A stretch of DNA of 64,000 nt from Physcia stellaris. Its lineage: Eukaryota > Ascomycota > Lecanoromycetes > Caliciales > Physciaceae. The translations under genes and the position numbers were made by a program. The notes under the pieces are model-generated. The model was not told the origin of the DNA. It saw only the letters and a program-made list of their open reading frames with translations, and ran no database searches. The DNA is taken from positions 372,001-436,000 of the forward strand of contig JABSSW010000035.1 of the NCBI GenBank assembly GCA_018902385.1. The letters run 5' to 3'. Positions within the stretch are counted from its first letter, which is position 1. Each line of letters begins with the position of its first letter. Of the stretch, positions 21,401-24,145 are shown in pieces.

Positions 21401-24145
21401 GCGTGTTTTGGACGAGGAGTACGAGAAGCTCAAAACTGCCCGAGAGTTCCTTCGAAAGAATAAGAAGGATAATAATGAACAGCTACAGCTTCCTCTCAAC
21501 ATCCCACGCATTCTCGAGACCGCTATGACGACTTTCAATATCAAAAATGGATCTCGAAGCAACCTTGATCCAGTAGAGGTGATTACCGAAGTCAATAAAC
21601 TACTTGATCGCCTAGTCGTGGTGCGTGGCGACGACCCCTTATCACGGGAAGGTCAACACAATGCCACTCTACTTTTCAAGGCTCTGCTTCGATCTCGCCT
21701 TGCGTTCAAACGCCTTGTAATGGAGTACTCGCTGAACAAGTTAGCATTCCAGCATGTCTTGGGCGAAATCGAGAGCCGGTTCTCTCGCGCAGCTGTAAAT
21801 CCTGGCGAAATGGTAGGCGTTCTAGCTGCTCAGTCTATTGGTGAGCCAGCGACTCAGATGACATTAAACACCTTCCATTTTGCTGGTGTTTCTTCCAAAA
21901 ACGTCACACTTGGCGTTCCCCGTCTGAAGGAGATTCTCAACGTTGCAAAGAACATCAAAACTCCCGCCATGGTTGTTTTCCAAGAGGATCCACATGCCGG
22001 TAAAGAAGTCGCTAAATCTCTGAGAAGCGCTGTCGAACACACAAAACTTCGTTCGGTCACTGAGTCTACGGAAATATACTACGATCCTGACATTCGATCG
22101 ACATGTATTGAAGCTGATCGTGACATGGTGGAATCTTACTTCATCCTTCCGGACGCTGACGCGCAAGACGAGCACCGGCAATCAAGATGGCTCTTACGCA
22201 TCATTCTTGATCGTAAAAAGCTTCTCGACAAGGAGCTCAGTGTGCAGGATGTCGCTTCCAAGATCAAAGAAAATTATGATACACACGTTGCGATAATCTT
22301 CAGTGACGATAACGCAGATGAGCAAGTTATTCGTATCCGCGCGTTGCATGATGAAAGCAAGGACCGCGATGAGGAAGAGGAAGAGGAAAATGTGAAATTG
22401 AAGAAGGTTGAGGGTCATCTCCTTGACACTTTGACTTTGCGTGGAGTGCCAGGCATCGAAAAGGCTTTCTTGAAAGAGGAGAAGAGACTACGTCTGACAG
22501 AGGCGGGCGAGTTGAAAATCGATAGTGCCGACCCTCTTTGCACCGAATGGTGTTTAGATACCAGTGGCTCGGCCTTGGCGGCGGTTCTAGCTGTTCCAGG
22601 AGTCGATACCACACGCATCTATACCAACTCATTCATCGAGGTCTTCGACGTCTTCGGCATTGAGGCCACAAGATCCGCACTTATGAGGGAGCTTACAGAT
22701 GTCCTTGCCTTTGATGGCTCATACGTCAATCACCGTCATCTGGCCCTCCTGGTCGATGTCATGACTTCTCGAGGATACCTCATGGCTATCACTCGTCATG
22801 GTATCAATAGGGCCGACACAGGCGTTTTGATGAGATGCTCTTTCGAAGAAACCGTTGAGATTCTCTTGGAAGCCGCTGCATCCGGTGAACTAGACGATTG
22901 TCGTGGCGTTTCTGAGAATGTCATGCTGGGACAGCTTGCCCCTGCCGGGACCGGCGAGCATCAGGTTTTCTTAGATCAAGCCATGCTCGATACCGTGGTC
23001 GCAGATAACGCCAAATACGGCATTGCGGGCAACATTGGCATCAAGGGCAACATGTCTCCTGAGGGTGCAGCTACGCCCTATGGCAGTTCGCCAGTGCAAG
23101 ATGGTGGCTATGTTGGTACGCCTGACTACGGCGCAAATTTCTCCCCTATGGCTAATACCGGCGCTGCCACTCCTGGGGGTTTCTCTGAGTATCAACCACA
23201 AGGGTTTGGTGGGGGAGGCTTCAGCCCATACGGTGCTCGTAGTCCGGCTGCAGTAATTGGAGTCTTGCTTATCATCCTTTGGTATCTGTCTCTAACATCG
23301 TCCACAGGCATCACCATTCAATTCTATGGCATCACCCCGCTTCTCGCCCGCTTCACCATATTCTCCATCGTAATACGTCCTGTTCCTGCGCATGATATCA
23401 TTAACTAAATTCGACAGGTCACCAAATATGGGAATCACGTCTCCAGGCTTTGCAAGTCCCCGCTTTGCCTCCGCCTCTCCAAATTTCAGTCCTCAAAGTC
23501 CCGCCTTCACGGTAATTAAAGATCCCTTTATCAGTGCTCTCAAAGCTAATCACAATACTTGCAGCCAACATCGCCTGCATACTCGGTACGAGAGCCCAGA
23601 TTTTTTCTATGTAGTCAGGAAGCAAGAGCTAATGGCTATTTACCCGCAGCCGTCCTCACCATCATTCTCCCCAGGCTCCCCTGCTGGCTACTCTCCATCG
23701 TGAGTCTGATCTTTCCCTACGATAATCATTCGCTGACATAGCTATGCAGTTCGCCAACTTATAGGTATGATGTTGTGATCCCTTTGAAGAGCAGATGACT
23801 GACCCGAAGGCCCAATCAGCCCTTCGTCTCCTCAATTCGCTGCTGCAGGCTCACCTTCAAGCCCGATGTACAGTCCTTCAAGCCCCGCTTTTGGTGTAGG
23901 CTCTGTCTCGCCAGCAAGCCCGCTCTATTCGCCGACTGCAAGTGTTCCTCAGCTTCTAAATACGCCCAACTGACCCCATCTAGAGCCCGCAATATTCCCC
24001 CAGCTCACCTCACTGGAGTCCGCAGAGCTCCAGTGGCCCGTCGCCGTCCAATATATCACCCTCCAGTATCTCACCCAGCTCCCCCGTATACAGTCCCGCC
24101 TCGCCAACCTTTTCTCCCGCCTCACCCGCTTCCCCTAAGCGATGA
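18473..24145 (+). CDS. rpb1: RPB1, largest subunit of RNA polymerase II, with degenerate intron-rich CTD
   Basis: Ten exons (18473-18758, 18813-18883, 18951-23252, 23308-23369, 23418-23511, 23565-23585, 23650-23699, 23750-23764, 23820-23943, 23984-24145) sum to 5,187 nt, or 1,728 residues. The zinc-binding clamp motifs CGTC and CPGHFGH, then CHNCGKIK, lie near the start. The catalytic magnesium loop is YNADFDGDEMNLHVPQS and the bridge-helix/trigger-loop area reads VGVLAAQSIGEPATQMTLNT. It is the catalytic subunit transcribing mRNA in the nucleus. After about residue 1520 the C-terminal domain has SP-rich, Tyr-poor pseudo-heptads (YSPSSP, YSPASP, YSPTAS) rather than perfect YSPTSPS repeats. 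Seven introns split it, leaving micro-exons of 21 and 15 nt. The last donor (23944, GTTCCT) is weak but is the only phase that keeps the CTD frame. The gene is divergent from SWD1. Confidence 0.95.

Follow-up and report, generated by a model that had tools for sequence, protein, structure and literature searches.

The DNA analysed here, a 64,000-nt stretch from Physcia stellaris referred to as the window, carries what its sequence identifies as an ordinary RPB1 gene, encoding 1726 residues, of a lichen-forming ascomycete near Heterodermia (Physciaceae) (Table 1). In a search of solved structures a 1133-residue query was matched over its whole length, the best hit being 3h0g_A rpb1 (E 0), which we take to be the S. 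pombe chain, and the Pol I and Pol III subunits scored far lower for the same query. The RPB1 of Heterodermia speciosa, which NCBI classifies in Lecanoromycetes, Caliciales, Physciaceae, is 95% identical over the linker and 96.2% identical over the core, the latter value indicating a close yet distinct species. The naming of the gene as RPB1 in a preliminary description of this DNA is confirmed. The assembly containing the window comprises 44 Mb in 147 contigs, and a search of it with RPB1 returned a single 100% match and six more on two contigs; since these six are just 36–64% identical, RPB1 is taken to be single-copy, and they are presumably the Pol I and III subunits.

Several other features were recognized in the window. 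A Swd1/RbBP5-like WD40 protein, a COMPASS subunit (6e29_D SWD1-like, E 6.9e-105), is encoded about 0.9 kb upstream of RPB1, in head-to-head orientation. A C/D-box snoRNA of the Aspergillus snoRNA family Afu_335 (78.5 bits) lies upstream of an ORF with three RRMs and is possibly located within one of that gene's introns. Two ORFs of 1127 and 743 residues gave no match in a Pfam search, and a further ORF belongs to the concentrative nucleoside transporter family (PF07662, PF01773, PF07670).

Table 1. Features of the window, with the observations on which each assignment rests.
Feature	Position	Strand	Remarks
Swd1/RbBP5-like gene	16505–17620	-	
RPB1 gene	18473–24145	+	ten exons, 1726 aa; joined frame, structure match E 0, 95% linker identity to Heterodermia speciosa
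5' intron a	18759–18812	+	54 nt
5' intron b	18884–18950	+	67 nt
Long exon, end part	22900–23252	+	end of long exon 18951–23252
CTD intron 1	23253–23307	+	55 nt; ORFs of P0001 and P0003–P0006 run off here; junction also in P0002 model
CTD exon 2	23308–23369	+	62 nt; frame, decoded tails of relatives
CTD intron 2	23370–23417	+	48 nt; if retained, immediate TAA, where Heterodermia NCBI model ends
CTD exon 3	23418–23511	+	94 nt; frame, decoded tails of relatives
CTD intron 3	23512–23564	+	53 nt; frame
Micro-exon 4	23565–23585	+	21 nt, phase 0/0, PTSPAYS; frame, fit in P0006 tail
CTD intron 4	23586–23649	+	64 nt; frame; no second copy in genome at E up to 1
CTD exon 5	23650–23699	+	50 nt; frame
CTD intron 5	23700–23749	+	50 nt; frame
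Micro-exon 6	23750–23764	+	15 nt, phase 2/2; better alignment score with 120/120 relatives
CTD intron 6	23765–23819	+	55 nt; frame
CTD exon 7	23820–23937	+	118 nt; frame
CTD intron 7	23938–23983	+	46 nt, GC-AG; frame
CTD exon 8 and TGA stop	23984–24145	+	162 nt; frame
ORF, no Pfam match	31470–33698	-	743 aa
Three-RRM ORF	34971–36191	-	
snoRNA Afu_335	36570–36661	-	
ORF, no Pfam match	45150–48530	-	1127 aa
Nucleoside transporter ORF	61797–63203	+	

The introns of RPB1 are very unevenly placed, with two near the 5' end, none over the following 4.3 kb, where the long exon is open for 1434 codons, and seven within the last 0.9 kb. These seven predicted introns, of 46–64 nt, divide the CTD (the last 178 residues of the protein), and the exons between them join in a single frame through to a TGA stop with consistent phases at every edge. 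Six of the introns have GT-AG ends and intron 7 has GC-AG ends (GCAAGT...TCTAG); an alternative GT four bases further in was judged by eye to break the frame. All seven contain a branch-like motif, [CT]T[AG]A[CT], starting 14–21 nt from the intron end, so that the ends, the branch motif and the restored frame are those of U2-type spliceosomal introns. An origin of the introns as copies of each other or as introner elements was considered and rejected: the best of the 21 pairs gave p 0.015, uncorrected, with 200 shuffles, and intron 4, the one of the seven that was searched against the genome, matched itself alone at E up to 1.

If one of the seven introns, whichever it is, is retained, the computed reading frame meets a stop and the product has 1574–1684 residues. 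This would suit a self-sensing arrangement in which the CTD helps to recruit the splicing machinery, so that weak splicing leaves an RPB1 intron in place, the CTD is truncated or the message decays, and Pol II is lowered; short introns, however, very often yield stops by chance when retained, and we consider such an arrangement quite improbable. Exons 4 and 6 have lengths that are multiples of three and symmetrical phases, and computed skipping of either one keeps the frame (1719 and 1721 residues, respectively), whereas skipping of exon 2, 3 or 5 gives an early stop and skipping of exon 7 an out-of-frame reading. The eight exons and seven introns of a degenerate CTD, the correspondence of exon 4 to exactly one heptad unit, the 15-nt length of exon 6 and the agreement of all phases had been proposed beforehand, and all of these hold in the joined frame and in alignments of relatives across the junctions.

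Many of the related RPB1 sequences resemble bare ORF calls that start past the 5' introns and continue beyond the end of a CTD exon. The best match to a query of linker plus CTD, P0007 (65% identity over 95% of 287 residues), extends from its Met to a stop codon and has no 5' introns, and its contigs do not exceed 6108 nt; its length and the absent 5' introns indicate that it is probably an assembled transcript. This uninterrupted sequence shares 14 of 16 residues with the CTD across exons 2-3, 20 of 22 across exons 3-4-5 and 13 of 16 across exons 5-6-7, and its alignment covers junctions 2 to 7, junction 7 included, with both micro-exons represented. Junction 1 lies outside the support given by P0007 and is identical in the Heterodermia speciosa gene model (P0002). 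Comparison with this NCBI protein model showed that, after the same first junction, it ends at SPYSPS, as retention of intron 2 would make the present protein end.

Further support for the exons comes from the out-of-frame tails of relatives. The ORFs of P0001 and P0003–P0006 overrun their CTD exon at the site of intron 1, P0001 by only two residues and P0005 by one. Six relatives' tails were decoded for out-of-frame exons, each against 100 shuffles. Exon 2 was decoded over 14 residues in the tails of P0003, P0004 and P0006 (shuffle maxima 11, 10 and 13), so that these single runs lie slightly above the shuffle maxima of 10–13, and parts of exon 3 were decoded in order in P0003 (11 and 10 residues) and P0006 (13 and 14), each part by itself being near the shuffle maxima. 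The P0010 tail matches P0007 over 11 residues (shuffle maximum 9). P0011, which is 97.1% identical to P0007, lies on a 49.9-kb contig and runs off at the intron-2 site, has a tail that decodes to the next exon of P0007 over 28 residues (shuffle maximum 11). For P0008 the decoding gave no run exceeding chance. The P0006 tail (90.1% core identity) has a single place where a PTSPAYS exon flanked by AG and GT can be fitted, and 1 of 300 shuffled tails allowed such a fit.

The preliminary description had suggested aligning the CTD with RPB1 from related genera; in such alignments both micro-exons match, the inclusion of exon 4 improving the score with 115 of 120 relatives and that of exon 6 with all 120. 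As a control on 40 of the 120 relatives, seven-residue segments were deleted from other parts of the CTD, and the penalty equalled or exceeded that for losing exon 4 in just 9 of 161 cases. The motif [FYV]TPTSPx[YF]SPxSP, which contains exon 4, occurs in 118 of 138 long CTDs and is missing from 20, among them four Aspergillus proteins and one from Pneumocystis; the PTSPAYS stretch is thus widely kept. Frame and homology together indicate that both micro-exons would be required in the full product. The preliminary description had also proposed that skipping of the 21-nt exon varies the length of the CTD. Its premise of an unbroken frame is correct, for the 15-nt exon as well, but regulated skipping of either exon is made highly improbable by the wide conservation of the stretch around exon 4, by the cost of losing it and by the presence of the homologous heptad in P0007. 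Given how widely the stretch with PTSPAYS is retained, constitutive inclusion of exon 4 appears likelier than skipping. The Xlr2 micro-exon of Trichoderma is comparable in being a 20-nt exon of a filamentous ascomycete that gene models overlooked; in the excerpts of PMC11121469 considered here, its inclusion is regulated and proven by RNA, whereas inclusion in RPB1 is deduced and probably constant.

Repeats are prone to misassembly, and an assembly error had been named beforehand as an outcome that would overturn this gene structure. Tandem Repeats Finder detected no 21-bp array in the CTD DNA, just a 9-nt and a 15-nt row, and on this absence together with the homology misassembly was rejected. 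With the same exons decoded from relatives' tails, the frame preserved at all exon edges and the long exon open throughout, the chance that the structure is an artefact of any kind (misassembly, a pseudogene or a wrong choice of splice sites) is next to negligible.

The CTD itself, counted from RSPAA, contains 41 SP, 8 Tyr, 8 YSP, 4 FSP and 1 WSP, and only one of its 12 [YFW]SPxSP units has Thr at position 4. It was correctly described as Ser-Pro-rich and poor in Tyr, with eight Tyr-Ser-Pro positions rather than about nine, and its lack of a perfect heptad is borne out by a YSPTSPS count of zero over the 178 residues. Among the 28 relatives for which counts were obtained (27 named plus P0007, some of them partial models; four more yielded no count) YSPTSPS occurs 0–7 times. 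YSPTSP occurs once here and once in P0007, 6–14 times in most complete named relatives and 21 times in Pneumocystis, so that this CTD is unusually poor in YSPTSP even against its relatives. Over 121 long CTDs, namely this one and 120 relatives having 40 or more SP within the last 330 residues, the median Thr4 fraction of the units is 0.80, and this CTD and P0007 have the lowest value, 0.08.

Degenerate CTDs are the rule among fungi outside Saccharomycetes. The excerpts of PMC9451162 considered here describe substantial divergence there with retention of S2-P3 and S5-P6, and give near-perfect YSPTSPS arrays as a feature of model yeasts; the earlier view that most ascomycete CTDs are such arrays is thus unsupported. 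Like the divergent CTDs in those excerpts, the present one retains its Ser-Pro pairs, diverges at positions 1, 4 and 7 and replaces Tyr1 with Phe, but it differs in the near loss of Thr4 (one of 12 units) and in its seven introns; the intron passages among the excerpts concern Ess1 rather than the CTD. The yeast CTD has the same heptad unit in the same domain, and its 21-bp coding repeat is unstable according to the portion of PMC4882425 consulted, whereas here a 21-bp array is undetectable and introns lie inside the domain. It is conceivable, if unlikely, that the introns have been kept because, by interrupting the 21-bp repeat, they prevent slippage and recombination in CTD-coding DNA. The yeast instability and the missing array here agree with this, but degeneracy by itself could abolish the repeat, and degenerate CTDs that lack introns occur in many relatives.

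In a FastTree tree of 123 RPB1 cores, interrupted CTDs are found mostly in two clades, one of 13 rows with Heterodermia (Caliciales), into which the Physcia stellaris gene falls, and beside it one of 43 rows with Cladonia (Lecanorales). Both have support of 100 in this tree, and of 100 and 98, respectively, in a thinned IQ-TREE set of 59 rows from which 10 near-copies of the 43 had been removed. By eye, the CTD breaks in the two clades occupy about nine or more distinct sites. With this gene, P0002, P0007 and P0098 set aside, and row ends scored for run-off by a simple ad hoc rule, 46 of the 52 two-clade rows end in a non-CTD tail, some tails being just a few residues long; the remaining six comprise four abrupt ends (P0012, P0035, P0049 and P0077), the seemingly complete P0114 and the partial model P0118. 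On the Cladonia side, in-frame read-through of introns in P0028, P0034 and P0036 reveals further short exons, for example around TPTSPSYSPSS in P0028. The 67 rows outside both clades, Teloschistales (Xanthoria) and Peltigerales (Sticta) among them, include 59 scored as full, five that share a KQ end site and three odd models. Seventeen of the 59, being named records, may represent spliced models, P0087 resembles an mRNA and P0097 actually ends in a short run-off, so that 40 of the 41 ORF-like full rows outside the two clades read through the CTD; interruptions there occur in the five KQ-site rows and P0097.

The order of the 13-row clade, the 43-row clade, Teloschistales and P0070/P0088 was not resolved by FastTree. 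In the thinned IQ-TREE set P0070/P0088 adjoin the 13-row clade with support of 80, and a tree joining both interrupted clades was 5.68 log units higher, with p-AU 0.707. Low Thr4 tracks the two clades, though imperfectly: YSPTSP occurs 9 times in Cladonia rangiferina, and P0070 and P0088 have Thr4 fractions of 0.36 and 0.43, yet their CTDs were scored full. A scan of viral contigs for the relatives' DNA gave 14 loci at 25–44% identity. An open-licence library yielded no paper on RPB1 CTD introns in lichens and, among the matches listed and as judged by title or start of abstract, no report of CTD introns in fungi.

Taken together, the gene is very probably an ordinary RPB1 whose degenerate CTD retains the Ser-Pro pairs and is encoded in eight constitutive exons, CTD introns having been gained piecemeal within two clades. 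All eight exons would be spliced constitutively, and the polymerase would act as Pol II does in other fungi, by way of modified Ser-Pro sites, Ser mostly replacing Thr4. The introns would have been gained bit by bit within the Caliciales-like and Lecanorales-like clades, with one or two origins of the habit, in a coding stretch that is no longer a 21-bp tandem array and may tolerate insertion; the micro-exons would be a by-product. Uninterrupted CTDs all round and many differing sites inside the clades favour repeated gain over one old intron set, although gain rather than loss is a direction that we infer from one gene tree, resolved in part. Candidate causes for the clustering of introns in the CTD are neutral tolerance, suppression of repeat instability and retention feedback.

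A bolder reading, which we think improbable, is that the CTD-coding part of RPB1 in lichens of Caliciales and Lecanorales was a hot spot of intron gain during the loss of Thr4, and that the cluster ties RPB1 output to splicing, the tail reporting on its own splicing function; if that were true, truncation upon retention and heptad loss upon skipping would provide the link. At a practical level, the deposited Heterodermia RPB1 model ends within the CTD, and ORF-based calls cut RPB1 short for most sequences in both clades. The CTD is usually treated as a repeat array; lineages with a CTD that is poor in Thr4, is divided into heptad-sized exons and has no repetition in its DNA offer a natural experiment on the requirements of the CTD as well as on the sites of intron gain.
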